Source: Opeltia flavorubescens (Eukaryota; Ascomycota; Lecanoromycetes; Teloschistales; Teloschistaceae). From it: a DNA stretch of 64,000 nucleotides. Positions 30,403 to 62,449 of this stretch are shown here, piece after piece. Below the pieces are notes generated by a model. The model made no database searches and was not told the origin of the DNA. It was given only the letters and a program-made list of their open reading frames with translations. The translations under genes were made by a program, and so were the position numbers. The DNA is taken from positions 186,001-250,000 of the forward strand of contig KE546976.1 in NCBI GenBank assembly GCA_000442125.1, given 5' to 3'. The number at the start of each line of letters is the position of its first letter. Position 1 is the stretch's first letter.

Positions 30403-33265
30403 TCACCTCGACCAAAACATCACCAAATCATCGAGATCCTTCATCATCATCTTCCCTCTTGGTTTCGGTTTGCCCTGCTCCCTTAGGTACGTCTTCCTCA
30501 ACTTGTAAGCTTTGGCTTCTGCAGTGATAGCCTGTGCCTTGTCGCCCATCGATGAGAGAATCGCGGATTGGAGAAAGGAGGCTCGCGCAAGCTCGGGCTT
30601 GTAGACTTCGGGCCACGCGTGCCAGACTTCGATGGATTGTTTGAGTAATTCCCTGTCAGGGTCGAGTGTCTGGTTAGCCTGGTGGTCTGGTCTCAAATAG
30701 ATGTTGAATCCTATGAGATGGAGAGAGGGAAACCATTGAAGGAAGTATGAGAACAGAGCAACGTACAAAGCTTTTTCATAATTCCCCTCCCGTAATTGAT
30801 GCTGTGCAATCTTGTAGCCCGCATCCGCCGTACGGTGATCAGTGATACCGACTGAAGATTTATAATGCGAATAAGCCTTGAGATGAAAGTAGTGGCTTCC
30901 ATCCATCCGGTATTGACCTTGGTATGACCTTAGATTTCCCAGAGCAAAGAGCAGAAGACCGGTCCTGCAATCGGGTTAGCCGGTGAAGCAGATCATGGGA
31001 AATCTCGCTACTAGCCTGTAAGACTCATCATCTGGTTCTCCCAGGATCTGTCTCCGCAAGCCCAAGGCTTCTGACAAGATAGCTTCACTCTCAATCAACC
31101 TGCCCTGCATCATGTATGCAAAGCCTAGGTATGATTCCAGTTCAGATGGCAGATAGGTGGATAGGTCCGTGTTCCCTGCCTGGGTACGTAAGATATTACC
31201 CTCAATGTTCGGGCAGGCGAGGGCGCGGTTCATAGAGAGCTTTTTCCGCTCGCGCTGCGCACTCAATAACATGTTGATAGCCTCATTGAATTGGCCGTCC
31301 TGGATTGCAGCGACGGCCAGCTCGATAACGCTGAGAATCGCTCTTTCACCAACCCTTCCATGAGGTTTTAACATGTCAAATTGCATCCTGTAGGATATAC
31401 ATTTGTGTTCACGACTGACTTTATGCTGGTTCATATCGGCTGCGATGGCGCCCAGGAAGAAGTGAATGTCGATCATCAGGAGGGTCTTTCTTGGATCTTT
31501 AATCGTTTCGGAGATCTCATTTGAAGTTTTCAGAAGTTCGTCGAGGTCTTGCCTGGAGCCCCTTTCGTGCTGGTACCTACATCGTTTAGTCGCTGGCCCC
31601 GAAACACGTCAGACGCAGACCCAAGCTTACCAGGCAGCGTTGTTCAACAGGGCGCATAATCTTATCTTTGTGATATCAGGTATCGCCTTGGTAAGCTCCC
31701 ACATATACTTCAGCCGTAATACGTGAGGATACAGCGACGCACACCACGGCCATCGAGATACGATATCGCGCTGATTGCACGTTTTCGGGTGTAAATCTGG
31801 CTTTCGTAGCGACGATCCTGGTGTCGCCGATGGCCATCTGTACCATATCAGAAAAACCGTGAAGCAGAACAATGAATCGAATTTATTCGACTCAAGCTTA
31901 GCAATGGCAACATCTTGAACAACGCCATGAATAGTCAGGTCGATGCCTTCTTGATCCCGTTTCACCAGAGATGACCGCATGAGCTCATCACGTGCTTCAT
32001 TGAATGATGCAGGACCTTTGGGGACGCTCAGAACCCCAATATCGTGATATATTTTGTCAAACAGTCGCTCTTGAATCTTGTTCGGATCCAGGAAAGAAAA
32101 GGTGTCTAAGATCGTTTTTGCTCCAGGCCCGAGCGTCTCCAGTTTCCATACGGTAGCGAGGTTATGGGGATAAGCATAAGTGGTCGGTTCGACAGACGCA
32201 GTATGTAGGTTGGCGTGCTGATTTGGTCGATTATAGAGTTTGTACATCTCTCTAAGACTAAGCTTGCGGGAGACGGAGATCGTAGCCATCTGAAAGATGG
32301 CAAGTGGCAAACCGCCTAGGATTTCGACAAGGTTTTCTGCGGCTGTATCATCGTAATCGGTCTCATTCGTCAACTTCTTGAGCAGAGAGGTACCCTCATG
32401 CTTTTGCAGACGTCCTAGGTCAAGCCCGGCGGGTTTTTTTGACAAGATCGTTTTTGCGGAGGGGTCGCGACTTGTAATTAGAATGGCACCACAGTCGAGT
32501 GAACGAAAATCCTGGAGAACGAGTGGATTGTCGGCACCATCGAGAACAAGAAGCCAGGTGGCTCGAGAGCGTTGGAGAGGAGCAGCTTCGAGGTCACTTT
32601 CCAATTCTGTTGCAAGCTTCCAAGGATCTGACAGCCAGCTCCAAATTGTCTCTTTGTTCGCTTCAGATCTACAGTCATTGGACTGGTCTCGCAGGCCCAG
32701 CTGTAGCAGCATGTGCCACAAAGATGTTTCAAGCGCATCACGACTGCCGGCATGAGCCCATAGGATCACATCAAAATCATCTCGATGGCGGTAGGCGAAT
32801 GCGATAGCAGTGTCTGTCTTACCGATGCCGCCCATACCACATAACGCAAATACCCTTGGACCTTCGACCTGCGAAGCCGTAGCGGGAAGTTTAGGCAGAA
32901 GTAGCGTGTCAGCGATAGCTCTGAGCGCATCTTCACGACCAGTAAAATTGTGATTGCGAGGAAGGTCGTCAAGCTTATAGTGCGGAATATTTGGTTGAGA
33001 TCTTGGGAGCGTTCGTCCATGATTCGTTTCGGTGTCGTCGTTCGAACACTGTGGCATCGTTTCTACTCATTCTGATCTAAAAATGGTAGTCTGATCAGAG
33101 CACATGATGTAAATAGATCAAGCTCACCTGAAGAAGAGCTCGCCGATTACTGCCTAGACTTTCTCTGCACATTCGCACAGTTGATGTATGAAAAGCTGCT
33201 TTCAGCTGGGCAATTGGAGTAGAGGATTGTAGCAATGAAGAACGGAGGGTAGAGATATCCACCAT
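30403..33265 (-). CDS. NB-ARC/TPR protein (fungal NLR-like STAND ATPase)
   Basis: A STAND-type signalling ATPase; fungal members act in non-self recognition and regulated cell death. Counting from Met 33057, the NB-ARC core has P-loop GMGGIGKTD (about 74-82), Walker B WLLVLDGAD (168-176), ILITSRD (192-198) and GGLPLAI (248-254), then a winged-helix-like part. Exons: to 31631; 31576-31016; from 30964 onward. Intron 31630-31577 is GT-AG. Intron 31015-30965 appears to start with GC; only that donor keeps the repeat frame (YR then TGLLLFALGNL). A further small intron near 30.7 kb is likely but uncertain. The C-terminal part has TPR-like helices (SYLGFAYMMQGRLIESEAIL, QLREGNYEKAL). Start: either 33057, or an extra exon 33265-33128 (MVDISTLRSSLLQSS) joined in phase to 33048. 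No recognisable N-terminal effector domain is present. It lies beside the nine-gene array. Confidence 0.88.
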
Positions 33266-37331: not shown

Positions 37332-38039
37332 CTAAATAATCTCTTGGATGGCAGCAAAAAGCTCCTCACCAACCTCTTTCACAACTTTCTCCTTCCGGGG
37401 TATATCTTTCCAATGGTCAGTGGCTGATCAATTGAAGTAAAGAGCTCGCGTACCAAATTGTAATAGTTCTATTGCACCTGCTAGGAAACCTTCTAGTGCC
37501 ATCACAATTTTGGCTGTTTTCTGGAACGTATGCTGCCCCGAGAGAGCAATCTGCGTAAACGAATTCACGTCGTCATCTATTCTGTCCAGCGCCGCTGTTA
37601 CGGCCATAAAAATTTCCAATTTCTCGTCACAGCAGACCTTTATGACACGATCAGTCCTGGTGTAATGTTTGCTGTCTGATTTAACAGAGTAACGCACTGT
37701 AGCAATACGACCGAGTAGTTTCCAGCACAATGTTGGATCTAGGTCGCTGTATAGTTGCGCAGAGAGCAGTCGGGAGAGAATACTGGTGTTACAAAGAAAA
37801 TCCTCCAGGTTCGCGATTGCTTTTAGCGCTGTAGGGTGGACTTCATTGTCCTCCAGCCAGATATGGAACGCTGGGAATGCCGCCAGATCATGGAGTTCAC
37901 TGCGAGTCTTGAAGCCAAGGAGTCTGTAAGAGGTCTCTTGACAAGCCTTCAATCGCTGGCTCAGTGCCTGTATTCGACTGGATCTATATCAGTACCATCA
38001 AGGATACGCGAATCGATATACCGACTTAATGTGATTCAT
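37332..38039 (-). CDS. Array paralogue A, unknown helical protein
   Basis: Exons 37983-37698, 37637-37454 and 37405-37332, plus a tentative first exon 38039-38026; 185 residues and the shortest member. Exon 2 is 286 nt, exactly as in paralogues G and H, and the phase-0 and phase-1 introns sit where the others have them. The first exon (MNHIK) would need a 42-nt intron with donor GTCGGT, which is weak. Motifs: LSQRLKAC in place of the usual W-x-x-C, FHIWLEDN, and the Glu helix KIVMALEGFLAGAIELL. The tail is only 24 codons (KEKVVKEVGEELFAAI). The family function is unknown, and there is no signal peptide or membrane span. Confidence 0.72.
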
Positions 38040-38438
38040 TACAACGGCTTCTGTCGTTAGATGTCTGTTGTGTGCGAAGTCAAGGCCACGTGCTAACAAG
38101 AGTCACTTTGCCTGCTAGTTCAGAGTGAGTAGATAACAAAGGCTAATATTTCGGGACGTTTCTTTGAATCCACGCAGTTGATAAAGCATACGACTTCTAC
38201 AGAAATAATACAGAAGATTGAGCACCCTGGACCATTATTTATGCGGGTGCGTCCGGACCCGCTAGTGAGTTCTTGCAGCGTCTGACGAACCATTGGGAGC
38301 TTCACTTGGGGCGTAGGCGCCGGTCTGTTACACTTGACAATCCATGGAATGATTTGAGGCAGTGTAAGGAAGATTATTGAGTGTGGGTCACGAATACACC
38401 GGTAGTCGTGTACTCTACATGGTTGGCTAATCATTGTA

Positions 38439-39413
38439 CTACAGAGGACCTTCCATGTTTCCCACACAGTTCGGTGGCTGTCGACATACTCGTGCAGGTT
38501 TTGACTCTCCAGAATCCTTTGCTCGCAGCTCGATTATCCTTGCCATTGTATCATCCGCAGATGGAAGTTCAAATCTCCGGAAATAATCATCTATCCAACG
38601 TCTACGATTCTCCAACCCCGTTCGGAGTTCCTGTATATCTGACAACGCACGATCTTGGGCCCCTATCATACGATAAGCTCGTCCCTTGTCCATCGGAAGG
38701 TGGGATCTCACCATCCCGCACTGCCTTGGCAGCTTTAGCAAGAAAGGTTTCCAAGATCATGTCCTCGTAGATTATCAAATAAGCCCGGATCGAGGAAAGG
38801 TGGTTCTCATAGGATGATGTGCAGCTACTTATGGTCATAGATACCATAAACCGCATCCCCGACAGAGTCTGCAAGACTTCGGTCCGAATCGATGCATCTG
38901 CGTGCTGCAGAGTTGACCATGTCAGCAAACCTAGTCATGAATGGCATGCCGTATCAAGAGGATTACCCGGATCCGACGCATGTAATAGTAGCGCATAGAT
39001 GGAAGCAGTGTCTGTCGGTGTTCTCTGGACACAAATGTATGAAGCTTGGTCATGGTGGATAGAACGTCATATGCCTTGGCAGTTCCGGCCTTCTGGCTGT
39101 AGAGTGGATCGCTTTTCTCCAGATAGGAGTGCCAAACTCGTGCTTTGCATCGTTCCCACCAAGGCGAGAAATTTCTGATGCCTTGCTCAGGGAAGCCAAA
39201 CGCTCGTCGGCCATCATTTACGCATTGGTCCCAAGCCTCAACGACGGACTGATTCCTGTTGAGAATCAGTTCGGGCGGTGGAAGACAAGAAGGACCTTTG
39301 GCTTACAACTCCGACGCGGAGGATATGCCATCATCATCGATCAGGTTCTTTGGAGGCCAACGATCATCATCGTCATCCGAAAGGTTTCCTTGGGAGGAAT
39401 CGAGTCTATTCAT
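38439..39413 (-). CDS. Array paralogue B, unknown helical protein
   Basis: Four exons: 39413-39307, 39255-38967, 38904-38712 and 38638-38439; introns 51, 62 and 73 nt; 262 residues. All borders are GT-AG, and the phases 2, 0, 1 match the family. The first exon encodes an acidic leader with a five-Asp run (LSDDDDDRWPPKN). Exon 2 opens with VVEAWDQCVNDGRR, one of the clearest W-x-x-C examples. Exon 3 (193 nt, same as D and E) holds RAYLIIYEDMILETFLAKAA. The tail is charged and helical (LENRRRWIDDYFRRF) and ends with CRQPPNCVGNM. The four coherent exons make this a safe model. Confidence 0.8.
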
Positions 39414-40521
39414 TGATATTCAGATGCATGGAAGATCCGGTTACAAGTCTGACAGTCGTATGGCACGAGGATGAAGTTTGGAGAGCTATAATCGGATCGT
39501 CTCAGAGGAAGAAAGGTGGCGAATAAATAGGGTGAGCCCAAGCGTGTGCCTCGGTACATTCAATCAATCAATCAATCAATCAATGAATGAATGGACCCAT
39601 CATTGATGTCGTACCAACTGAAGGCTGTCAAACACATGAGTCAACCGGGTCGTATGTTCCGAAGTTGGGCAGTGCAATTAGCAGCATACCAGAAATACTC
39701 CAGCTAGGATGCGAAAGGAGGTTCCACATGCAGCCTGTCGGGAGCACACCTGAGCACGGAGGATGACGAGGCAGGAATGAAGAACATGATACCGGCCGAA
39801 CCGGGGATGTTCCATATCAATGGCTTCGTGCTCTATCATCATAGATGCAAGGCGGTCGATGCACAGCTACCCGCAAGGCAACAGCTTGTACCTGATTGGC
39901 ATCATACAGTAGCGGCAGACTCCTTTGGATGTATCGGCAGCAGGTTGATCCATGTTTCACTGCAGAAAAATACACAAGTCACCACTGGCTGGGGACCGTT
40001 CCTACTGAACGTCTCATGCATAAGGGTAATGCTACTAGGCATGCACCGCAGTCACTGGCGCGTCAGTGCATTCACCGCTCCAAGAGCAGACGTTAGCACT
40101 TCGCACGGACAAAGAGCGGCTTGACGCCCACACGGAAAAGGGATGCAATCTGCCTCGGAGTGCGAACACAGCGACAATTGTAGTCTACTACGCGTGACGA
40201 ATTCCTAGAATGAGTTAAGAAAGGCGAAGAACCCTGATTTCGACTATTCGCTATCTATGAGGTATCATCTGATCCATGATTCTAGTAACCATTGCAAACC
40301 AATTGCGTTGACAAGCTGGCAGATAATTCCCGAGATTCTGGAAGGAGCGAAACCTGGCGAACTTGCCGGCGGGTGAGTTTTAAAATCCAATTGCTCAACA
40401 TCACGAAGCTGCCGAATCGGTCAACTAGCGAATTTGGGGCCCAGAGATTTGGAAGAAGTGAAGCCTGGCATTTGCCTCTATGAAACCTAGTCTACCAACG
40501 ATACCATTTTCAGCAATGCTC
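39414..40521. other. Intergenic spacer between array copies B and C
   Basis: No gene was recognised. A (CAAT)n tract lies at about 39560-39590. Two similar stretches, GGAAGGAGCGAAACCTGGCG near 40338 and GGAAGAAGTGAAGCCTGGCA near 40450, look like a diverged direct repeat just beyond the 3' end of copy C. Confidence 0.4.
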
Positions 40522-41309
40522 TTACAACGCATATAAACCTTTCTTTAACTCCTTCATGAAAGTACAGTCAACCGAAATGTTCTGTTTGGCCTTGAAGGCA
40601 TCATGACGGCTCTCTTTCCAACATTTCTCTATATTTTCAGCCTTACCTCGCAGCAATTCGGTCTGCCCTCGAGCAGACGCACGACTTGACGAGGAAAAGA
40701 CTAACACCAACGTCAGTCCTTATGTCGTTGTGAAACCCGATTTTCGAGCGAGTTTGTGTCAAATCACCTTCATCCTCATCGCTTCCGTATGCGTCATCCA
40801 TCCATTTGACTATTCTGCGAATGGACTTTCCAATAAGGACTTCCATTTCCATGCTTGCAAGACGGATGCCTGGCCCCGGGTGAACAATATTGGTAGTGTG
40901 CATGTCAACGACCAAGGGTCGAAAGAGTTTTAGAACCTGTACGATCTCGGCATAGAAGTCGTATCGCTCGTCTTGTCCTCCTTCGTATGTCTAAGGATAT
41001 CATTACTTCTGCCAAATCGATTTAAAGGGACTGTCTCTGTTAACGTACCTTCAATGTTCTCACAAACTTGACTTCCTCATAATCGATCAACGAGTCTTCT
41101 TCTTCAGCAGAGGTGTTCATGCTACGCAAGGAGTCGAGGACCATGATTGTGTCTACTGCGTCTGCAGCGTTGCGTAGTAAATCCGCTCCCCAGTATCCAC
41201 GATGATAATCGCGTTCAACGTTGATCCATGAGAGGAGACTTTGTAAGTCTGGCAGGCAAACGCGTGGAATGTGTTTGCTCTTCTGATCAACTTGAGGCTC
41301 GTCGCTCAT
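40522..41309 (-). CDS. Array paralogue C, unknown helical protein
   Basis: Exons 41309-41049, 40990-40768 and 40700-40522; introns 58 and 67 nt in phases 0 and 1; 220 residues. It starts at MSDEPQVDQKSK; the usual phase-2 first intron and the W-x-x-C opening were not found, so it either lacks them or has an unseen first exon. The central exon carries LPDLQSLLSWINVERDYHRG, which lines up with LHNLHSWIECERL of copy E. The Glu helix reads ASMEMEVLIGKSIRRIVKWM. The acidic end of exon 3 (YGSDEDE) is followed by a Ser/Lys-rich tail with Cys. This is a divergent member, supported mainly by intron phase and helix position. Confidence 0.68.
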
Positions 41310-42218
41310 GTCTGATTTCCCAGGGTTGTTGACGTCACTTCCGCCATGAGAGAACTGTCAGCTTCTCAGGTCAACGTTGATGAACAGATATTCAACTCAC
41401 GGATTCATAGTCTTTATCTTGTTGTGATCTGGTGTTGCGAAGCTTATGTTTTGACGGTCCGAGATGGACTTGCCTTGATCAGCTATGATGTGTCCTGGAA
41501 GATGGCGAGAAGAATGTCAAGACTGCACTGCCCTCTAATATATCAAAATTACTCACAGCGTGTAACATACGGCCCCTCCAAAAGAAGTCACTGTAACCTG
41601 TCCTCTGCGCTCTGCCCACCAACCGGATCATCCTTTATCAAAATCCGGAGCCGGGTACATTCTGGGCTCAATCACCATGCAAGTCGGCCGAAAAAGTGTT
41701 CAGATGATGTGAAGAAGGTAGTACGAGGCTGAGCTGCTGCAAGGCAACATAGCTTGAAGATCCCGATTGGTAGGAAGATCCGCACAAGCATTGTTTACCC
41801 ATGACGCCCATTGCATGTGGTTTAATCTGCATGGTTCAGGCTAAGGGACTGCAGCCAATTACTAATCTAGTTTTGGTATACTACACCGCAATTTTTCATA
41901 CTGATATGTGACCGACATATATACCTCCTAGATGGGTCAACAACACAGGGAATGGTGCAGGACTACCACCTCCATTACTAGCTGCGTTGAAGCTTCACTA
42001 GTGTTGTTACAAAACTTCATCAAACTCATACTCGATATTTCGGCGCGCAACAGTCATACGATGAGATGCACATGCAGAATGCAAGACGTTGAACGAGATT
42101 CATCGTTCGCCTATATTGGTTGACCATTGTTTGTTGTACAGAAAACTCCAGCCTCCTCCATGACCGTGCCTGGGTATCTCCTGCAACATTCGTTCTTCCT
42201 GAATATCATCAAACCACC
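41310..42218. other. Intergenic spacer between array copies C and D
   Basis: About 900 bp in which I see no gene or repeat. It should contain the promoter of copy C and the 3' flank of copy D. A further 5' exon of C could lie near 41360-41420 but could not be joined in frame. Confidence 0.4.
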
Positions 42219-43226
42219 TTACATAGCTATCCGGGATCGCGCTTTCCGCAGGACTCTTTTTGCAGCAGAATCTTGACTTGAACATCGACTTTTACCAGAC
42301 GGCTTCTTCAAATCGGCCTCGGATTTCCTTGCACATCTTGCAGCCTTGTTAGACCTCTCCATCAAATGGTCATTATTTTGAATCTGCTGTGGACGAGTAC
42401 CATATCCTCTTCGATTAAATCGCCACTCTATCACCGTCTGTACGTCATCCAGCGCTGATGGCAATATCTCATCGCGTACGCAAACATCAAGCGCTCGAGC
42501 CTTTTCCAAAAACTCTGTCTTGAATTGTTGGGTCGCCGGGAGTGCTTGCTCTGGTCGCTCTATGATCCGGTCAGCTGCGAGCTTCGCGCCTGATGTAGTC
42601 CGGTGGAGAAGGTCGCTTACCCTCTTTGAATACCTTGGTTATCCTCGACAGAAGGTCTTCTATGATGGTCTCTTCATATATGACAAGTGACCCCAGACGA
42701 CCCAATGTAACAAGACCTTTGGAACGGTATTCTTCGAACAGCTTCCGTGTTTTCTTGACTGCTGGTTCCAACATGCTTATGGACCTCATAATATCCATCG
42801 CAATAGCTTTGTCCTTCTAAGTATCTCAGAACTACATCAGCGAGATAGACTGGCCTAAACGCTTCGTGACCTGAATGTTACCTTCTTGAGAAAATCAACG
42901 TGAGCGAAGGATAAAGGGAGATCAAGCCAGAGTGGCTGCTGTTTCGCAATCCGATCATGAAGATTATATAGCTCGCAGATGATCGGTATCTCTAAGGAGT
43001 CGCCCTTTTTGGCAAATGGACAGAGAGCAGTGATAAGATGTCGGTTCCTTTTCATAAGCTGCCTTTCTGGGCTTGGGAACCCTTGTGGTGTTTTCTCCAG
43101 CCGAGGATCCGCTAAAGTCTGACGGCCGGCATCCACGCATTTGTTCCAATTCCTGATCTCGAATTCTTGCCTAGATGAGTTTAGCCGGATCATCATTTTG
43201 GAAGAAGGCCCTGCTTACAGCTCCAT
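42219..43226 (-). CDS. Array paralogue D, unknown helical protein
   Basis: Four exons: 43226-43219, 43170-42882, 42813-42621 and 42559-42219; introns 48, 68 and 61 nt; 276 residues. The first exon is only eight nucleotides (ATGGAGCT), the same mini-exon as in copy I, followed by a phase-2 intron. Exon 2 (289 nt) opens with FEIRNWNKCVDAGRQ. Exon 3 (193 nt) has GRLGSLVIYEETIIEDLLSR, close to the family consensus. The tail is strongly basic (KKPSGKSRCSSQDSAAKRVL), unlike the acidic leader and short tails of its neighbours, so D may bind nucleic acid or acidic partners; that is inference from charge only. Confidence 0.78.
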
Positions 43227-44198
43227 CTTGACAAGCGTCAAGATGACAAGGCATGGATTGATAATGATGATCTGTATCAAAGCATGATATCTGTCAAATT
43301 ATAATACATGATGGGCATGAAAGCTTCGACAGGAATCTAAGGAACTTGAAAGTTCGGAGACAATGCCGACCTGACGAGAGATGCGGGACTTTGGTGGCGG
43401 ACGCACCTTACCGCCTGCCCCAACTTTCATCAAGCAATCATTGTGACAGAACATGTGAATATTCTAGCATTCAGGCATACTGTCAATTGCGAGAAGGCTA
43501 TCATCGCTCACCTTTGGACGACCTTTACTCCATTCAACCCAAAGACGTGGTTCAAGCTCTTTGTACACCCCCCCTGCGACACTTTGACTGCAACTCCTTT
43601 CAAAGCCGAGCTTGGACCACACGTTCAACGCTTCGGAGTGCCGATCCCCTGAGCTAGCAGCAACATCATCCATGGTATGCTCCATGGCGTGCATGCAGCC
43701 ACGGGAGCTGCATGTCGAAACCTCCTTTCTATTGGCCGAGAATATTTGCCACTAGCGGATGTTGAACGGGGTGACAGGTAGGCTACCAAGTCCCTGCAGA
43801 TTTCACCGGCCAGCCTTACGACTTGGTGTACCTGCCCCCAAAACTATTGTTCGTGGGCGAAAAGGGGTGGAATTGTCTCAATCCTAGAATCACGCTTCGA
43901 TATTAACACGTGATTTCAACACCCAGGGCTCACAATCATTCATGGAAATCCAGCCAAAGTATAAAATTTCCCTGTGAGATACTAATGGAGAGCCGGATTG
44001 CAGGAAGAAGTAACCTAAAGGCGTACAAGTACCTAGTAGGCAAGATCTTAGATAGCGAATTGCGCAAGGCCTCAAGGCCAGATCCAAATCCATCATTCTC
44101 CTATCAATTATCGCATCAACCGCATCGCAGCACGAACTCCAGGCGATATCCACAACCCGAACTCATCTCTTCTCTATAGTACACCCAGTATCTTGCTC
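43227..44198. other. Intergenic spacer between array copies D and E
   Basis: No gene was called. A plus-strand frame at 43443-43652 (LWTTFTPFNPKTWFKLFVHP) reads fairly like protein but has no family, splice partners or neighbours to support it. The stretch should hold the promoter of D. Confidence 0.35.
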
Positions 44199-46037
44199 TC
44201 AACTCCATGCCTCTGTACGTCTTGACGACAACGACCTAGCCCTCCGCTGTCTGTTTTCAATCCGATCGAATTGCGCCCCAACTTGAGTTCCAGCTACTTG
44301 AGTCTCAGCAACGTGAGTCTCAGCAACCTGCTCCTCAATATCTCTCGTCTCAGCGTCCATCGCCGCAACATCTTCAGTCTTAGCTTCTTCGGCCTCATTC
44401 TCGCCCTCCTCTGGCGGAGAAATCTCCCGCATTTGGGGAATATCCTGATATGCCGTCCGTCGCTGATCATCCCACCAGTTTTCAAGCCTACGAAGATTTT
44501 CCCAGGTATTTTGCTGGAGCTTTGCGACGGCATGAGATTTTGCCTCTGAAAAATGTTCATACCCTGTAGATGGCACCGTTGTATTTTGCTTGGGCTTTGA
44601 AGCAGACGGTTGAAGTGCGGGTTGGGAAGGTAGTGTTGGTGTGATATGCTTGGAATCTTCTTTGCCATGATGTCCTCCAGGGACGTTAGGCTGAGAGAGG
44701 GTCGTTATCTTGTTGGTTCCTGGTACTTTCTTCTCCTCATCAGGATTCGAAGATTGCGTCACTGCATCTCGCGCAGGCTCTCTTCGTGCATATTTCCCAT
44801 GTGCTACTCCACATCTCTCACATGTCATCCTGTCTTGCTGAGAAGTTTTCGTCGCCGCATTTGACGATGACCTATCTTCCTTTCCCGCGGAACCAGAAGG
44901 TCCCGTCGTCGTATTCTGTTTGGGTTCCGCTGTCACTTTTCCAAGATTGTCAGAACTTACTGCCGTCTCGAGTCCAGATTTCTTCGTGTCTTCCTCACTC
45001 CAATGAGGTCCAGCCACGAGAGCTCGCTCAGAATGTGCTATCACCCTGTCAGTCTCCTTCCACTTACATTCTCCCTCCTCTATATCACCACTTACAAGGA
45101 GGCATCAACCCCTTGATCCCCTCGACAAATTGACTCAAAAGACCTTCGATCCTCTCGACTAACCCTCCCACCTCACGTCTCGGCTTAGTATCTGCGGCGT
45201 AATAGGCCTCGGTACTGAGACGATAGAGGTGTTTCAATACATCAATGACAGCAATGAGATATGGACGATGGGCTTCATCTTCGTAATCCTAGGATTTCAA
45301 CACGTCAACTTCGTCTTTATGGTAAAGATATACTTCGAAGACGTACGAATTCAATAACCTCAATCCCACAGTTCTCGATCAATGGCGGGTTCGTATCCAG
45401 CAGCATTTCGTAGCAGTCAGTGAGTATTCGGACGGTATCGATTGCGTCCCTAATGAAGAGCAGCACAGGCGATTGAGGATTTTTCAGGCGTTCGCACTCG
45501 ATCCAGGAATGTAGGTTGTGAAGGCCGGGTACGTGATGGACGTGGCGCCGATTTTCAGGTGCGATCTCCGTCGTGGCTTCACTGTCTTCATTCTGCTCCG
45601 CCAGATCGTGGGTCTCCTTGATTTCGTCTTCTTCATTGATACCTTCCTTTCTGGTAGCATCGCCGTCTTTTGCCGTGTTTGGGCGCTCCAGAATACCTGC
45701 CTTATTGGTCTCGTTATCCCAGCCAAATTCCTCTTCGGTAGTGATATCTTCATCTTCGGTGGTCTGGTCCTCCTCCAGACCTCTTGTCTCAATAGACAAG
45801 GCCTGCTCCATCGATATCTTTTCCCACTTGCGGACGTCATCTTTCGTGGTAGCTCCTCCATTTCCTGTGATTTTCTCACCGACCCAAAATTGCGACTCGC
45901 TATCCAGAATCTGCTTCTTTGATGGAGGATCGGGTGAGCTGGAGCTATGTATCATATCAGTCTTTCTAGTGAAACCGTTTCAATGGAGAACGTTAGGCAT
46001 ATACTTACCCGCTCGACCTCTCTCGCGCACGTTTCAT
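44199..46037 (-). CDS. Array paralogue E, long form with disordered arms
   Basis: Four exons: 46037-46009, 45944-45347, 45288-45096 and 45037-44199; introns 64, 58 and 58 nt; 552 residues, twice the family norm. Phases are 2, 0, 1, and exon 3 is 193 nt as in B and D. The helical core sits at about residues 155-275 (GLHNLHSWIECERLKN, DAIDTVRILTDCYEML, VGGLVERIEGLLSQFVEGIK). Before it is a Glu/Asp-rich arm (TTEDEDITTEEEFGWD); after it is a Ser/Thr/Pro/Lys arm with CERCGVAH, a single C-x-x-C pair too small for a normal zinc finger. The end holds a short repeat (VAETHVAETQVAGTQV) and a basic stretch. It looks like a core embedded in disordered regions gained by exon extension. Confidence 0.76.
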
Positions 46038-46853
46038 CGTCGAGACAGTCGAAAAAGATCAAATCCCGGATTGAGGGTTTTTCGAAAAAAGAAAGATCCT
46101 CGACAGAAAGCTCAATGTCATCAAATGATATATGTCATAATACTTTGTAGCCAAGAAAACCCAAGGACAGAAAAACACAGATCAGAATGGAGAACAAGGC
46201 TCAACCCTCAAAAGACCTACCCCCGAAAAACAAATCGTGGGATCGAATTCCAAACACTCTCCCGACTGTGGAAATTGCAGCAGGATGCTATCCACACTAT
46301 TCACCCCAACCATCACTGTAACACCAAATTACGCACCTCCCCCATCTTCCCAACCCCACCACCCCGTACAACCTACCCACGCGCTCGCCTACACCGGTCT
46401 GCAGAACATACAAACATGCATGCATACCGCCCTTTTCCTTATCAACCTATCGGATCTCAATCCTCACGATTGCCAAAGAAACTTATATGGCTCAGGGTCA
46501 ATCACATCTCATGACTCAGGGTACTTAGGGCTCTTCCTAGAAGGAAGTGTTGTTGTACAAAAGCCTTACACAGCCCCCGCCTGTAAGACTTAGGCGCCAC
46601 ATCCATTCATTGCGCTTTGTCTGTTCAGGGAGAACGAACTCCCGAGATGATCATTTCGATAGGTCAAGTAATGCTTCGTAGCTGATAACACGTATGTGTG
46701 GTATATAGCCTGTATGATCGACAAAAGAACAATAAAACAAAAGCGAATGGTATCACCTGTATCTTATCACAAAGGTGATAATAGTCTTTCAAACCCCCTA
46801 TATTCAAGTGTCACAGCAAGAAGGAATAAAGGGATAGACCTTCCAGAACCAGC
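46038..46853. other. Intergenic spacer between array copies E and F
   Basis: No gene seen. It contains the presumed promoter of copy E (immediately above 46037) and possibly the 3' flank of copy F. The plus-strand frame crossing 45.6-46.5 kb is a shadow of copy E. Confidence 0.4.
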
Positions 46854-47285
46854 TCATGATCTATCCCACAAGAACTCTCTAATCAAACTCCATTCCTCTC
46901 CTACACCATCACCTGAAGAATTCCGCCAACCTTCTCCAGCAATCCCGATATCCTCGTACAATTCCTCGCGTGATACCGCCAAATCACCGACTTCTGTACG
47001 AGGACTAGACGAGATTAAAGCAGAGTCGATATTCCTATCTGTCGCTGCAGTTCCGCCCAGAGTACCGCACCAATTCAATTGATCAGTCTCAGTATACTCC
47101 TCCAAGTCACCACCCTCGAAAGAAGAATAAGCTTCGGTGAATAGACCTCTATCAAAGCGAGCGTTCCATTCTGCATCAGAGATATCCCACAAGCCCAACT
47201 CCTCAATCCCAATACCTCCATCCAATCCATCCAAACCACCGACTTCCGCAAGGGAACCAGTCTCAGCAGAAGGACCCGGATCAGA
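46854..47285 (-). CDS. Possible extra 3' exon or repeat of the paralogue F tail
   Basis: The frame is open from about 47285 to a stop at 46854 and is acidic, Gly/Ser-rich and non-random (GGLDGLDGGIGIEELGLWD, then SFEGGDLEEYTETDQLNW). SSSPRTEVGDL echoes SPVTEIGDL in the tail of copy F, and EEWSLIREFL echoes DMWNALREFL. So it is either a last exon reached by an intron I cannot place, or a tandem copy of the tail exon. A possible acceptor is the TAG before GATTTTGCC; no matching donor with a good GT was found. Confidence 0.4.
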   Translation of the reverse strand, partial: SDPGPSAETGSLAEVGGLDGLDGGIGIEELGLWDISDAEWNARFDRGLFTEAYSSFEGGDLEEYTETDQLNWCGTLGGTAATDRNIDSALISSSPRTEVGDLAVSREELYEDIGIAGEGWRNSSGDGVGEEWSLIREFLWDRS

Positions 47286-47317
47286 GGCAAAATCCTATTC
47301 CGGTCCTGGAAATCCAC

Positions 47318-48481
47318 TTAGGATATTTCAGTGGAGAAATCTGGAACAGAGTAATATTTCGACTCTGGTCCCAGAAACTCGCGTAGGGCATTCCACATAT
47401 CGATTTCTAGAGTAGTATCGGTATCCTTTTGCAAGGTTTGCAAGTCGCCAATTTCTGTAACAGGACTAGCTTCGGTAGAGGGAGTTGTAGCAGAAGCCGG
47501 TGTATCGATTCCAGAGGCAACGGTGTCCGAAGGAGTGGTTGATGGATCTGGAGCAGGAATTGCTGCAGGACACTCATGATGCATCCCTCGCTGGATGATT
47601 GTATGCACTGCCTCGTATGGCGATGGAAGAATAGATAGCCTCCAAAGGTCCATCAAGTGGTCAATTTCGGCGATGAACCCTGTTGCAAGTTGAATCATGA
47701 ACATTTTCTTTTCTTCCGCACGCGCTTGATATCATCAGCAGCAACCTTCGACTTTCATGGATCAATGGGATCTGTTTTACCTTTCCGCGAGGTCCAAGCA
47801 ACATCGACCATCTCCGCGAGATAATAGGTCCATCTTGTTTCGAGATGTAGGACCACACAGTTCAGACCAGGCTTGCGAACATCCCAAGCCAGGAATTCCT
47901 CCTGATCGTCAATTCCCATTCCGAGATACGTATTTTGCAAAGCCAAGATTGTTCTCCTTGCCCCGTATTGAACAAGCTTTACAGCACCTTTGTTCGCCGC
48001 CCAACTGCTTGGGGATCTCTGTCCAATGGTCAATCACCGTTTGACTTTTCCTTCCGCCTTGATGAGTGGATAGCTTACATGAACAATGAGCCAAAGCAAG
48101 CGCCAACACAATGGCGGTGCTAGAATTGGACTTGAAGTCTTGATGACCGCATTGTGCATTTTATGGATCCGCCGCAATGCCAAAACGTTCAAGTAATCCT
48201 CGTAGTCGAATTGTTTGTTCGCTGGGCCGAACTTGAGATGGTCATCTATCAACCATTCCTCGAGATCTTCTAAGGATCTATAGAGCTCGGACAGTTCCCT
48301 TCGACGGTGTGTGATCTTGCTCCTGGCGTATGAACAGCACTGTTTCCATTGTTCTACATCTATCGGATCAAGAACATACCTGTTCTGGATCAGCCAGTGC
48401 GTTTGAGCTATTAGCAGTTCATGCTTACGGGGATCTGGGTGTAGACCGAGGTATCGATTGTTCTTGGATCGCTTCTGCCAT
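47318..48481 (-). CDS. Array paralogue F, unknown helical protein with Thr/Pro tail
   Basis: Four exons: 48481-48429, 48379-48079, 48018-47781 and 47724-47318; introns 49, 60 and 56 nt, phases 2, 0, 1; 332 residues. Motifs: DPIDVEQWKQCCSYARSKI at the start of exon 2, LEDLEEWLIDDH, then KPGLNCVVLHLETRWTYYLA as the Glu helix (P-G-L kept as in G and H). The last exon encodes a helix (LVTGFIAE-like) and then a Ser/Thr/Pro-rich tail with TPSDTVASGIDTPASATTPS and TEIGDLQTL. A minus-strand frame further on (about 47285-46854) has related text (TEVGDLAVS) and could be another exon, but I found no convincing splice pair, so I end the model at the TAA at 47318. Confidence 0.75.
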
Positions 48482-48722
48482 GGCAGTGTTAGGTATAATC
48501 ACGCAGACACTAATCAAGGAATCAGTCAAAGTCATGAAGTTCACCCATAAAGAAGGAGAATTTACCAGTGACAGTAGTTTTGGAGATATTATTAGAATGA
48601 CCTCTATGTCTTTGCACTTGGAATGTTATGAATAAGTAGTAATGTAGAGTATGTGAATACTGGCAGTGCCACCGCAAGAACGAGATATGTAAGGCATACG
48701 TTTTCCGAACAAGAAGTTCTCA

Positions 48723-48986
48723 TTAATTGGCAAAAGTACAATGGAAGGAGCAGACTTCAAAGTTCCAGGAAAGAGCAGTCCTCAAGAGGCTTACGACCGA
48801 TCGAGGTCTCGGATCGGGCCTTCTACCAATAGCAGGATCATACGCAATGAGTTTGTTAGTCATGATCCAAGACTGCGACTTGTATCGCAGGCGCATTCCC
48901 ATCAAGGGCAGCAGATGTTGCGATCTTCGTTCTGCGATCCCAAGATCGAAGGGTGATATCTCGTTCCTTAGATCGATATCAGTCAC
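48723..48986 (-). CDS. Small uncharacterised open frame between F and G
   Basis: Eighty-seven codons from ATG 48986 to TAA 48723, with text such as LRNEISPFDLGIAERRSQHL and RLRYKSQSWIMTNKLIAYD that looks more protein-like than chance. There is no known domain, and no sign that it belongs to the array family. It may be a relic of a duplicated neighbour gene. Confidence 0.25.
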   Translation of the reverse strand: MTDIDLRNEISPFDLGIAERRSQHLLPLMGMRLRYKSQSWIMTNKLIAYDPAIGRRPDPRPRSVVSLLRTALSWNFEVCSFHCTFAN

Positions 48987-49187
48987 TTACTATTGCAGCC
49001 ATAAATCAGCATTTCTAATGCGTAATCATATTCCTTGGTACAGAGGAAAAGGATAGCATGTCAGCGGACCAGGAAGAGTATGCTAATTGACCTGAACTTA
49101 ATGTGTTGTAGTAATATGGGCCCTTAAAATCCTTCCTTGTGCGCATTGGCTCATTGCAGTATTACTCGGGACAACAAATCAATAGCC

Positions 49188-49622
49188 TCACCTAGGTAGT
49201 AAACACACCAATCCACGTCGAAAATATCCCCGCCAAAACTTGCAAGGTCCCCAATACCCATCATCCGGCAAAGCAGCCATACATCCCGCCTTCGACCCGA
49301 GAGAAGAGAATCCTGTGCTCAACCCATTCAAATCACATGCATAAGCCTTCCGAATCACGAGTTCCCCGCAAATTCTGCCATGCATGCCTTCCCCGCTCAG
49401 ATACCATGACTTGAGACCGCCACCATCTCTCGAAATTAGTCCGTTGCACAGGACCCACAGAACCCGACGTTGGAAAAACTCAGCCTCGCGAGGGGAAAAT
49501 TTCAGGGTCAAATGGATTCCCCAGCTTTTCTTCGGTTTCTCGTAGTACTCAAACAGCGAAAAGATGGCACAAGGAGGATTTTCTACTAAAAATACCATTG
49601 GGACTAAATATGCCCCATCCAC
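49188..49622 (-). pseudogene. Relic block downstream of paralogue G, shared with the G/H spacer
   Basis: A minus-strand open frame of 144 codons contains EKPKKSWGIHLTLKFSPREA and HGRICGELVIRKAYACDL. Within it, 49430-49550 is clearly similar in DNA to 51185-51300 downstream of copy H. In an alternative frame both copies read [ND]-P-F-D-P-E. Because neither copy keeps one frame across the whole match, I treat it as a decayed duplicated segment, not a confident gene. Confidence 0.4.
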
Positions 49623-49864
49623 GTTCCTCGTATGGATGAAATGTGTGCTCTCGGAATATGAACCTCATTAGATTTCCCCAATGTTAAAACAATGAATCTA
49701 GTACATAAATCGCGTACTGTGGTGTGATAGGTCACTAGAGAGCCCCGACGAGATAATTTTCCTATACATTGAATGTAAACCTCTACCTACAAAATTTTCA
49801 TTCCATTTTTTTCATGATTGGAGTCTACCAAGCCCCTCAAATTACCTAAATACAGTGGACACGT

Positions 49865-50788
49865 TTATGCACACCGGCCCTTTCCCTTATCCTCGTCCGT
49901 CGTCGTCTTGCGTGCAATGACTTCACGGATATCTTGATTCGCAGAGGAGAGAGTCCCCGCCATTAGACATCTCGTCGTTTTCTCAATCGAGGTGTCTAGA
50001 CGTGTACCTTCCAAACGTATCAGAGATTGTGAAAGTGCAAGCTCTTCAAAGTCTTTGCAATCTGGTGGCGGTGCTGCTCCCTTCAATATCTCCAAGAGTG
50101 TTGCCAGAAACTCGGTGAGCAAGCACTCGAGGTAGATGATGACTGAACCGAGGCCTGGGGATGCTGATCCTGCTTTTATTCTCTCCACGATTAAGGTGAG
50201 GGGTTTGTGGAATAAGGCGAGGCCTTGGTAGGCCATGTACAGGACTCCGGGGCAATTTTGCTTGATTTTCTGGGTATGTGTTAGCTATCTTCATCTGCTT
50301 AGGCGGGAGGTTTTGTATTCACCGTGACGACGAGGAATATCTGTGGGCAATAAACAGCGGAGATGAGTGGTGACGGCATTGCTTTGGAGACTGCCACGTG
50401 GAGAACCTCCAAGATCTTGATGACTTTGATAGCATCGCTGACGACGTTGTTCATGATGTAGAGGACTTGGAACTCGATTTGGTCTTTCAGCCATTCAATG
50501 AGGCGTCGGCTTGTCGAAGGAGTGGCAACATGGAAGAGTTTGTCTTGTCCAGAAATTTTACGACTGCTTTCGCTGCATTCATCCCAATGTTCGATGTCCT
50601 CAGGACGACTAGAAATTAGGCATCAGCTTTTCACTCTTGAGATGATGGATTTGGTTAGCTTACAGCTTCATAGCAATTGGAATCGAAGGTTCGAGCAAGC
50701 TCTGCTTAAGTTCTTTGATCATAACGCTGTTGGAGTCTGCGTCTTTCTTAAAGTGGTCGTCTCGAATGCCACAATAAGTGTCAGCCAT
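49865..50788 (-). CDS. Array paralogue G, unknown helical protein
   Basis: Three exons: 50788-50664 (125 nt), 50608-50323 (286 nt) and 50269-49865 (405 nt); introns 55 and 53 nt in phases 2 and 0; 271 residues. Exon 1 and exon 2 lengths equal those of copy H exactly. Motifs: LRPEDIEHWDECSESSRKI across the first junction, RRLIEWLKDQIEFQVLY, and SPGLGSVIIYLECLLTEFLA for the Glu helix. G is the only member without the third intron; the reading frame runs through that site. A Met 20 codons upstream (50848) is in frame; I preferred 50788 because it equals the exon length of H. The tail is Thr/Lys-rich (RKTTTDEDKGKGR). Confidence 0.82.
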
Positions 50789-51654
50789 TCTGTAACGGTG
50801 GTACTGAGATGGTTTAGAAGAAGGATTTGTATGAAGCTCCACCTGCACAGATTATGTACGTGAGAAGTGCATGAATAATTGAAGCAAAACCGGCATTTCG
50901 CGAAGCTTATACAATAGCTGTGTGGTTACACGAAGGGTGGTACAAGACTTCGGGAATGAGTGAATGGTGCAATCCATCGTCTATCATAGCCGTAGACTTA
51001 CCGTGAAAGTCCTGACAGTGGCCGAACTTCACACCGAATATAGGTGGATTCTGCATCATTCATGAAGCCGTCTATATGTTGAGAATTAGCATCATGTATA
51101 GTACCAGCACCACCACCTGTAGTAAGAAGTATTTACTATGGAGATCCTTAAATAATTTTCCAGAATCATCGGATATGCTTGCCATCCTGTCGCACATGTT
51201 TGCCCTGCAACATAGACGTTGTAAAGTCTCAGCCTTGCAAGTGGGGTTTGTTCAGGGTCAAACGGGTCCCCGGCTTTTCTTCGATTCTTCCGCCTTGATT
51301 ATGATGATAGGGTTTAGTATGCTGGGTTTGTCACAGTGCGCGAAGGTTAGTGGAAGGGGTTTGGATGATCTCCCTTGATGTCTAGCTATGATCATCATAC
51401 TGATCTTTGTCAATTTCTTTTAGCATTGCACTTCATACTGGCCTTTGATTCTGGTTGATACTTGAGTTTACCCACGTCGCTTTAAATGGGAAGCTTAGAC
51501 ATGGTGTAGAAGATGGAGGAGGTATATGTGATCTACCTAGATCTCGATAATTCCAATTTTGTATGTAAGATGACATCTCCGGCCCTGGAGTCTCTCCTAT
51601 TTTTACGACTCATCGCCAACTTTTGACAAGCGAGGAATCACTCCACGAAATTTC
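50789..51654. other. Spacer between copies G and H with a decayed duplicated block
   Basis: It contains the copy-H-side relic at about 51185-51300 that matches the block at 49430-49550 downstream of G. Read on the minus strand, it gives DPFDPEQTPLARLRLYNVYV and GQTCATGWQAYPMILENYL in one frame. No intact gene is visible. The promoter of G lies in the lower part. Confidence 0.45.
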
Positions 51655-52735
51655 CTAGCCCAGAGACCAAAGAAATTGCCCAAATTTGAGGTTTTGGATG
51701 AAGATACGCCGAAAGGATGTTTGCGAATAGGAGTGATCCTCCGGTGCGACCGCCGTATTGAGCATCATCTCATCTGCCATGTTCTCTAGAGTATAATCAT
51801 GACAAGCAAGCCCACTTACTCCAATCTTCCGCCTTGTTCTTGACCACCGTATGAACTTCTTCAACCTCCGAAGGCAAAATACCCATCTCAAGACACGTCG
51901 TTATCGTTCCAGTCAAGCTCTGTATCGTTGCACCGCTTATATGTGCCTTCTCTTGCATGAACGCAAGTTCCTCGAACTGCTCTTTGAAACTTGGATCTGC
52001 TGTGGCTCCGCAATCATTCATGTGGTCCAGGATATGGACCAGGGAGCTCGCTAGCAAGCTCTCAAGGTATAGGATGAGAGAACCGAGGCCTGGGAGTGCT
52101 GATCCGTTATTGATTTTCTCGGCGATGATTTTACATGGGCGGTAGAACATGGAGACGAGTTGATAGATTGTGCTTATGACTCCTGGAACAATATGCTCGG
52201 CTCCCTGCGAAGATATTAGTATATTTGGTCTCTCTCTGTACAAGATGCTTTTGCAACCTACTTTGACAACAAGGTACACTGCCTGGCAGTGCATGGAAGC
52301 AGTGAGCGCCGACGGCATCGTCTTGGGAATTTTCTCGTGGAAAATGTCCAAGAGTTTCAGGGCCTTAACAGCATCGCAAGCATGACCGCTTGTTGTATAC
52401 ATGACTTGGAAGTCCATCCGGCCTTTGAGCCATAGTATAAGCCCCTGACTCGTCATGTAGTCGGCAGTGTCGTCGAGCTGATGTCGAGGAGCAGTCGTGC
52501 GGTTGATTTTGCTCCAATTTTCCCACGCTTCTACATCCGCAGGACGACTGGAGGGAGGGCAAAAGTCAGTCTCAATTCCCGGATCTTATTAAAAACCTGT
52601 TCAAACTCACAGCATCATCGCTTTCATCATTGCTGGATCGCGCAGTGACTCTGTTAGTTCTGCAATCATGTTGAAGTCAGAGCTCTCGTTCTTTTTCGTT
52701 TTATCTCTCCAGATTTGGCTGAATGGGAAGGGCAT
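51655..52735 (-). CDS. Array paralogue H, unknown helical protein
   Basis: Four exons: 52735-52611, 52547-52262, 52204-51820 and 51773-51655; introns 63, 57 and 46 nt; 304 residues; all GT-AG. Exon 2 starts LRPADVEAWENWSKIN, where the family Cys is Trp. The middle has GLILWLKGRMDFQVMY, close to copy G. The Glu helix is LPGLGSLILYLESLLASSLV. The tail adds QFEELAFMQEK and an end FRRIFIQNLKFGQFLW that is basic and aromatic. G and H are the most similar pair and share a decayed downstream block, so they are probably the most recent duplication still readable. Confidence 0.82.
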
Positions 52736-53230
52736 TTTGCAATAGCGGTAGAAAATTTGACAAGGAACTAATGAGGATTATTAAAGAATTCGAAGTGGCG
52801 AGGTGGTAGAGAAAGCGATATAGTCTTTGGATTATAAGGTGCAGAACGAAACAGAGAATGTTGGGTATGCCACGGACTATATATACCGACGGTGTATTGC
52901 CGAACGGAGGTAACACATTTGTCCGCAGGGACATCGTCATTCGGTGTTACAGCATTAGATAGACCATGGGAATCTCAACGCTACCTATCTCACTGAACAG
53001 CCTCCAGCATGGACAGTATTGACATTCTTGGCATGATTATGGCAGATATCATAAGTCATCCTGTTCATGAGGCCAATGGCCGTTTGGGGCTATACGAAGC
53101 ACAGTACCTATGACATGAGCTTATCTTGGGTCTAATTCTCAATCCCAAATATCTCAATGCCCAGTCCTCGATTTCCAGGTGTGCCTTATCATCATACGCC
53201 ATACTTTTAGTCCTAATAGGCCATTCGTTT

Positions 53231-54049
53231 TCAGGTTTGTACCTTTTCAGCGTGCTCAGACCCAGCAAGTCCTTTTTCTACGAGCTTCCCAATCTCCTCA
53301 AATTTATCATCATCTTCCAAAGGCATCGTAGAGTATCGAAGCAAGTAAACTATCTCGATCATTCTGAGCTCGATATCGTGTTGTAGACGGTTCGGTCCAT
53401 CCTGAGAATAATTGAATGAATGCCCTTCAGTATGTTAGCAAATCAAGCTGAATCAGGTTCACTCAGAAAAGTACCTTGCAATCCCTTGAGGATCTCGATA
53501 AGAAAATTTTCCAGAATGATTTCCACATATATACACACTGAACCAAGCCTTAAAGGAGTTGGATCCAGCGTCGTATCCAAAATGGTAGTGCAAGCGTGAT
53601 GGCAAGAATTGATTGTATTGAGAATCTGCTTGAAATCGAACATGGACAACTTCCTACAATTCTTATGACGAGTCAGCTGTATACCAGACATCTTGTGTAG
53701 GATGAATTACCTGATAGATGATGTAGAAATAGCGATCTGCTACCAAGGCCCGTACTTTCGAAGATGTCATGACTCGACGATGCACTGTCTGAAAGAGTTC
53801 AAGAGTCTCGATGGATTCGAATGCTAGGACTTCGAGTTCATTGAGCTCTTCACGGCCTTCGTTTCTACGAAGCCAGCAGATGAGAGTTTGATATGCTGGA
53901 TGGTATGCGGCGCCCGCAAGTCCTTCCTTACGAACGACTTTCTCCCCAGCTTTAAGACATTCGTTCCAGGCATCTAGATCTTGTGGGCGTCTGAGGTACG
54001 ATCAGCTTTGTCTATCAGCTAACAAGATTTCTCTGACGTACAGCTCCAT
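53231..54049 (-). CDS. Array paralogue I, unknown helical protein
   Basis: Four exons: 54049-54042 (ATGGAGCT), 53990-53711 (280 nt), 53661-53475 and 53424-53231; introns 51, 49 and 50 nt; 222 residues. The second acceptor would be ATAAG, which is unusual. The third intron holds a perfect GCTAAC branch-like site. Exon 2 opens with RPQDLDAWNECLKAGEKVV. The Glu helix is PLRLGSVCIYVEIILENFLI. The tail has LQHDIELRMIEIVYLLRYST and EEIGKLVEKGL. The mini-exon start is the same as in copy D. An upstream first exon like those of G and H was not found. This is the 5'-most copy of the array in transcription order. Confidence 0.75.
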
Positions 54050-61541: not shown

Positions 61542-62449
61542 ATGCCACAGGAATCCGACAAACGTCCGAACGACAATACGAAGTCATCATTCGCATCTCT
61601 GAATGGTCTACAGCCTCCTTGCGAAGGGCCGAAGCTTCATCCCTTTGCGGAGCGCAATGCCGCTATACAGTATATCCGCCCGCTCAGCGATCCCGAACAG
61701 GATGGACAAGGCTATGTCTTCGAAGTCATGATAGCTCAAAGGCGATATGCCCTCAAAATTGTAAGCAATGTTGAATGCTTTATGTGTCGTTGACCTTATA
61801 CTCTCTTTCAATGACATAGTTCGAATTCTACGACGAGGGCCCAGACTTCGATGCTCTCTCCGATTCTGAGCTCGGTGATGTAGGACTTGAAACAGTGCAT
61901 GCCCACTCTGATCCGTTTTACAACGAATGCCGCGCATATGGAAGATTGATCGAGTCGAACCTAAACGGGCGCGTCGCTGTCAAGTGTCATGGTTATACGA
62001 CAATCTACTACAAAGAAGTGCGTCAGCTTGGAAAGAAATTCGATATCGAGGAACTCGAATGTTCCCACGTCCCACCGGAAAGGTATTTTTACAGAGCAAT
62101 CGTCAAAGACTTAGTTGTGGAAGACCCATCTCTTACCCACGTGAGAGTTAAAAAGATGCTGCGCGATCTGCTGAAGATGCGGGATCTAGGTATCTATCCC
62201 ATGGATATCAAATCGAGAAACTACAAAGGCGGCCTGCTTGTGGATTTCAGCTGCGCCATTACAGAGCCACACTTCACGTTCAAAATCTTCCCTGAATGGC
62301 GGATTAGGACTATTAAGAATACTGATTTGGCTGAATTCGATGAAATGGTAAAGGAAGCAAAAGTCAAGACGGGAATCAAAGCATGGAATGTAAATTACAA
62401 GCGGAAGCTTCGTCCAAGGGATCCAGCCAGGGAAAGATATCCTCAATAG
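61542..62449 (+). CDS. FTA2-family (kinase-like) protein
   Basis: Two exons, 61542-61760 and 61820-62449, with a 59-nt intron (GTAAGC...GACATAG); 282 residues. It matches the FTA2 family, named for a subunit of the Sim4 kinetochore complex of fission yeast, but expanded in filamentous fungi, where most members are uncharacterised and have a protein-kinase-like N-lobe. Visible landmarks: GYVFEVMIAQRRYALKI (Gly-rich strand and the Lys of the A-x-K type), DPFYNECRAYGRLIES (the family motif FxxExRAYGRL), AVKCHGY, RDLGIYPMDIKSRNYKGG (in place of the catalytic HRD loop) and LVDFSCAITEPHF (DFS in place of DFG). So it may be a degenerate kinase. I start at ATG 61542; the frame is open further upstream. 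Confidence 0.86.

Follow-up and report, generated by a model that had tools for sequence, protein, structure and literature searches.

Nine gene models (A to I), all in the same orientation, can be built on the minus strand of a 64,000-nucleotide stretch of the Opeltia flavorubescens genome (contig KE546976.1, positions 186,001 to 250,000; hereafter the window, in whose coordinates all features are given). Together they occupy the interval 37,428 to 54,049 as a tandem array. We conclude that this array is a genuine, unnamed gene family, and that it adds an example to a phenomenon already known, since tandem clusters of orphan genes have been described in Neurospora crassa (Kasuga et al. 2009; PMC2684829). 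We put the probability of the reading as a whole at about 0.7: a family so far found in a single array, encoding small, intracellular, mostly helical proteins, that would have arisen through stepwise tandem duplication and fast divergence.

Six homologous genes with shared intron positions

Pairwise and profile searches establish, at the level of the predicted proteins, that B, D, F, G, H, and I are homologous. In an all-against-all phmmer comparison of the nine proteins (E values calculated for nine sequences), matches linked G to H (1.7e-53), G to I (2.2e-12; I to G, 1.2e-12), H to I (2.8e-9; I to H, 2.7e-9), B to D (3.4e-9; D to B, 7.2e-9), F to G (4.7e-6; G to F, 1.1e-5), H to D (1.5e-5; D to H, 1.4e-5), G to D (3.1e-5; D to G, 3e-5), F to H (1.4e-4), and B to I (1.8e-4). 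Pairs within the six that were not individually significant include B-H (0.64), F-I (0.21), B-F (0.19), and D-F (0.08). We also omitted each of the six genes in turn and searched 2701 six-frame open reading frames (ORFs) from 104 kb with a profile of the remainder; the top match outside the training set was an exon of the omitted gene in six of six cases (E values: B, 0.0093; D, 4.4e-5; F, 0.0018; G, 5.3e-16; H, 1.6e-28; I, 1.4e-5). The original prediction had named an absence of mutual hits as the outcome that would speak against a family, and for these six members such hits are present in both kinds of search. The six-member profile detected no further member in the window and 20 kb on each side, where the best unassigned ORF reached an E value of 0.71.

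Residues L42, W50, H112, L177, and L192 are invariant among the six. All nine genes had been said to share one order of elements, namely, an exon opening with W-x-x-C-like text, an x-x-W-[LI]-like helix, and a helix centered on an invariant Glu. The first motif is well represented, with LRPxDxxxWxxC in G and I and kindred forms in B, D, and F, but H has Trp in place of Cys and A reads ALSQRLKAC, without the Trp. The common order does not extend to all nine, as C and E have no exon opening with W-x-x-C text; E does contain W-I-E-C, but in the segment that aligns to the x-x-W-[LI] helix. The Glu is common rather than invariant, B having Asp.

Intron phases agree across the spliced models. Intron 1 is in phase 2 in all of B, D, F, G, H, and I, five of them sharing one alignment column and F lying three columns off. 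For intron 2, every spliced model (eight, counting C and E) shows phase 0, with a spread of at most 4 alignment columns. Intron 3 is in phase 1 in B, D, E, F, and I and is absent from C, G, and H.

Proposed duplication history and divergence of the array genes

Trees built from these few and very diverged sequences pair B with D (support, 0.94), G with H (0.94), and C with E (0.85). Given these pairs and the order B-C-D-E along the array, the simplest explanation is duplication of a two-gene block, and the arrangement suggests that C-B and E-D may be the two copies. The G/H duplication seems to have carried flanking DNA as well, because a block of about 72 bases lies 3′ of both genes, at 49466-49537 (about 0.3 kb from G) and at 51215-51286 (about 0.5 kb from H), with 78% identity and an E value of 2e-8. 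This block lies outside the gene models and may be mere duplicated flank or a conserved element. We propose that the family would have grown at one chromosomal place through successive tandem duplications, that H/G would have been copied later together with the 3′ flank, and that the copies would then have diverged through fast protein evolution of an ordinary kind, with some constraint remaining.

Divergence is strong, with 15 to 22% protein identity in 14 of the 15 pairs among the six homologous genes and 37% in the remaining pair, G/H. Repeat-induced point mutation (RIP) was rejected as its cause, RIP indices in 2-kb windows being alike inside and outside the array. Selection for variety had originally been suggested, and a recognition family that diversifies quickly, its variability maintained by positive selection, would indeed suit both a dense one-strand array and identities this low. 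The substitution rates lend that idea no support, however, because G/H, the pair best suited to the test, has a ratio of nonsynonymous to synonymous substitution rates (dN/dS) of about 0.4 (dS, 1.36; dN, 0.54), while B/D is nearly saturated (dS, 1.91; dN, 1.01) and G/I fully so. Tandem orphan pairs in N. crassa are also strongly diverged (mean identity, 36%; PMC2684829). We therefore regard positive selection as quite unlikely and prefer ordinary fast evolution under residual constraint.

Distribution of the family

Searches of the organism's own genome (34.4 Mb in 23 contigs; E values up to 10) with all nine proteins except H, those of D, B, F, and E entered as cores, returned 27 matches, every one of them inside the array. 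A collection of 5.8 billion proteins, queried with H and with the six-member alignment, yielded no relative. As a control, the FTA2 protein from the same window gave 185 matches in that protein collection, and those named among the 120 matches listed are fungal; fungi are therefore covered by it, although spliced, fast-diverging genes could still be missed. From these searches we infer that the family may be restricted to one lineage. The control gene itself, encoding the FTA2 kinetochore subunit (61820-62449, plus strand; PF13095, E value of 7.6e-32), has its best match, among the matches listed, at 72%, compared with 63% for cf. Caloplaca sp., 57% for Kuettlingeria, and 55% for Squamulea. 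These three, the closest of the named matches listed, are lichen-forming fungi of the Teloschistaceae, and this one gene thus points to a source that is probably a lichen-forming Lecanoromycete close to that family.

The original prediction knew of no named family with this pattern, and we likewise found no Pfam name and no meaningful match to PDB sequences. None of the members scanned (E by its exons, except exon 45096-45288) matched Pfam above the cut-off. Matches below it were taken as chance for B (RepB_primase_C; 25 residues, E value of 0.0068) and A (DUF7339; E value of 0.15), and the family consensus gave nine sub-cut-off matches, with KAR9 first at 0.017. The best match among PDB sequences, an engineered repeat protein at an E value of 0.14, was also taken as chance. 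The titles and abstract openings listed in literature searches, in which papers are not searchable by sequence, held no description of the family.

Predicted protein properties

Array proteins are typically about 200 to 280 residues long, E and F being longer. By simple hydropathy rather than a dedicated predictor, no signal peptide or membrane span is obvious, in line with what had been proposed: the highest 19-residue Kyte-Doolittle mean is 1.81, and the highest N-terminal 12-residue mean is 0.92. AlphaFold2 was run twice on H with alignments of exon fragments from its paralogues. The first alignment put several fragments in the wrong place. The second, chosen among 160 random sets of fragments for its agreement with our own alignment, still has 135 residues misplaced against 683 placed. 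Both models consist of helices plus a single questionable pair of strands, located next to or within the read-through intron, and are too weak to name a fold. The description of these products as intracellular helical proteins agrees with the mostly helical prediction and with the lack of signal- or membrane-like segments by hydropathy, but the model behind it is of low confidence; we infer, with low confidence, that the array proteins are mostly helical. Given these features and the lack of Pfam and PDB matches, we propose, tentatively and as a possibility that we would not favor, that each protein might act as an intracellular helical binding or adaptor module, with different copies serving different partners or conditions.

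Gene models and layout

Models were assembled by hand, joining stop-to-stop frames at GT-AG pairs, and eight of the nine (B to I) form closed frames with GT-AG introns of 48 to 73 nucleotides (nt). Member A, a probable member, is an open frame (37428-37988) whose start was not located, with a candidate 60-nt, in-frame, phase-0 intron at 37638-37697 that has a weak acceptor. B (38439-39413) has exons at 39413-39307, 39255-38967, 38904-38712, and 38638-38439. The probable member C (40643-41309; exons 41309-41049 and 40990-40643) has an uncertain start, as does the probable member E (44199-46037; exons 46037-46009, 45944-45347, 45288-45096, and 45037-44199), whose family core, at about residues 140 to 280, is flanked by a long extension on each side. 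D (42219-43226) and I (53231-54049) both begin with an exon that encodes only Met-Glu-Leu, D having exons 43226-43219, 43170-42882, 42816-42621, and 42559-42219, and I having exons 54049-54042, 53990-53711, 53649-53475, and 53424-53231. F (47318-48481) has exons 48481-48429, 48379-48079, 48018-47781, and 47724-47318, and its tail may continue through another intron into the ORF at 47294-46854. G (49865-50788) has exons 50788-50664, 50608-50323, and 50269-49865, and H (51797-52735) has exons 52735-52611, 52547-52262, and 52204-51797, its last intron being 57 nt long and in frame. All are on the minus strand.

Nine genes on one strand can thus be modeled as first described, eight of them with closed frames, although A still has no located start. 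The accompanying statement that no other confident gene lies between them holds as far as the Pfam scan of unassigned array DNA goes: it covered nine stretches, among them five of the many unassigned ORFs inside the array, and none of these five passed the cut-off. Beyond the models, the F tail and the next ORF (46854-47731, minus strand) contain, as read by eye, diverged repeats resembling TE[IV]GDL...(E/D)I..W...REFL, and a short TCAA tandem repeat of about eight copies lies at 39560-39592, roughly 150 bases upstream of where B starts.

The array might instead consist of genes that are decaying or in part spurious (pseudogenes or misread frames), which would account for the missing clear start of A and for the performance of our own ab initio gene finder (a small hexamer model), which recovered only parts of G and E. 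Against this stand the eight closed frames, the conserved introns, and a hexamer score that, of the three frames, is best in the chosen one for all nine models, albeit from a training set of only 23 kb, and we find decay or misreading scarcely credible.

Evidence against the family and the place of A, C, and E

Several observations weigh against a nine-member, one-array family of intracellular helical proteins. Knowledge of the homologous exon guided part of the choice of splice sites: hand placement was used for intron 1 (in B, D, E, F, and I) and for intron 2 of H, and the sites taken for introns 2 and 3 of I and for intron 3 of D were those ranked second by score. The column of intron 3 depends on the alignment, ranging over columns 232 to 241 in the six-way and 263 to 301 in the nine-way alignment, whereas the eight-way alignment puts B, D, E, and F at 245 and I at 250; intron 3 of E thus shares the family column when eight sequences are aligned but lies apart from it when nine are. 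The weakest leave-one-out result (B, E value of 0.0093) is only modestly below the best value that a reversed ORF reached with the full profile (0.046). Searches of the own genome were word-limited, such that G found H and I but missed B, D, and F, and orthologues elsewhere may exist unseen, because a match in the protein collection requires five-residue words in common and comparable length. The fold prediction for H is weak, with a mean predicted local distance difference test score (pLDDT) of 52.1 in the first run and 60.7 in the second (predicted template modeling score [pTM], 0.37). Finally, A, C, and E fail against the six-member profile, ranking in rows 30, 59, and 314 of 388 listed, most of which are shuffles; of 1000 shuffles of each, 15 (A), 40 (C), and 55 (E) reach the score of the real protein.

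The last result bears on how many genes belong to the family. It could be that only B, D, F, G, H, and I are related and that A, C, and E are unrelated neighbors, helical by chance; their poor showing against the six-member profile and a best pairwise z score of just 2.8 for A fit that account. With larger profiles (seven members for C, with E included, and for E, with C included; eight for A, with both), however, the shuffles reaching the real score fall to 0 of 1000 for A, 1 of 1000 for C, and 4 of 1000 for E. This test is generous, because shuffling destroys helical periodicity, and the profile used for A was built partly from C and E. Other evidence also argues for a wider family: intron 2 of C and E has the family phase and position, the C-E and C-H pairs reach z scores of 5.4 and 4.2, and the gene order B-C-D-E is interleaved. 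In A, by a count from the sequence, the candidate intron and the "Y/E" helix lie as far apart as in G and H to within about 1 residue. We consider it unlikely that the family stops at six; A, C, and E are probable members by profile score and gene structure, so that "nine paralogues" is firm for six and only probable for these three.

Possible kinship with NLR N-terminal domains

Some fungal NOD-like receptor (NLR) N-terminal domains are helical, and we pursued DUF7708 because of its intron position. On this account, the array proteins would be stand-alone kin of a DUF7708/NACHT_N-type helical N-terminal domain, serving non-self recognition or regulated cell death as partners or decoys. Three DUF7708 genes (L025, L029, and L030, among six loci viewed in the same genome) carry an intron in phase 0 that directly follows a hydrophobic helix, and a Tyr/Phe-headed helix follows 46, 54, and 47 residues past the intron, respectively, compared by eye with 46 residues in G, H, and B and 47 in D; the top hhalign alignment of the six-member family is in the same register, and in the vicinity is a gene with matches to NB-ARC and TPR. 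Nonetheless, the hhalign probability is 0.12%, and the score of 13.3 is exceeded by two reversed controls (14.1 and 15.3) and by the highest-scoring of 60 column shuffles (16.6; mean of the shuffles, 11.3). An eight-member alignment scores 12.2, with its top alignment elsewhere. The spacing misfits I (41) and F (58), DUF7708's WGA-x-K and LPR-like residues are missing, and no DUF7708 or NACHT_N match was obtained for eight members, the scanned exons of E, or the family consensus. The resemblance was spotted by eye, and phase 0 is a common intron phase. We dropped this kinship after the hhalign controls and hold it to be very unlikely; a more specific version, in which stand-alone helical domains of effector or decoy type, distantly related to fungal NLR N-terminal domains, expanded in one fungal lineage for non-self or symbiont recognition, we judge highly improbable. 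The preferred reading remains a family without a named relative.

In the array ORFs and models scanned, Pfam found neither NACHT nor NB-ARC. The window's NB-ARC match (31627-33066) belongs to a probable fungal NLR gene at 30976-33066 on the minus strand, about 4.4 kb from the array end, which also carries DUF7779 (within 31627-33066) and TPR (30976-31608) matches.

Comparison with known systems

The array is a compact, well-bounded example of how fungi can build private gene families through stepwise tandem duplication, probably including that of a two-gene block, and one in which intron positions outlast the near-complete loss of protein sequence similarity. The family has no Pfam entry and could become one. 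If copy number varies among lichen relatives, it would be a testable candidate for lineage-specific or symbiosis-related functions.

With DUF7708 (PF24809) and NACHT_N (PF17100), the family shares a helical appearance, a similar intron phase, and, in G, H, B, and D, a similar spacing to a Tyr/Phe-headed helix, but it differs in having neither profile similarity to them nor, in the ORFs scanned, a nucleotide-binding domain. HeLo, HeLo-like, Goodbye-like, sesA, sesB, and others are listed as N-terminal domains of fungal NLRs in PMC4986451, and fungal NLR domains are also treated in PMC12258605. HeLo and the other fungal effector domains listed in Pfam had no match above the cut-off in the scanned array members, a result that applies to the Pfam models and not to the Goodbye-like, HeLo-like, sesA, and sesB signatures of PMC4986451 itself.

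The closest parallel lies in the tandem orphan clusters of N. crassa, for which PMC2684829 reports 82 adjacent pairs of orphan paralogues, 73 of them head-to-tail, with the mean identity of 36% given above and no traces of RIP; clusters of at least five paralogues are marked in the legend of its Figure 4. The Opeltia array differs in belonging to another fungus and to a family that was not compared with the N. crassa families, in placing nine genes at one site, and in being more diverged (mostly 15 to 22% identity). Nor is it clearly subtelomeric: it lies 223 to 240 kb inside a contig of 1,598,914 bases that starts with telomere repeats, and is thus 223 kb from that telomere; the other end of the contig closes with a short TTAGGG-like stretch. 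What it shares with the clusters described in the N. crassa study is a pattern, here carried by six significant and three probable members: paralogues that are adjacent, arranged head-to-tail, and strongly diverged without traces of RIP.

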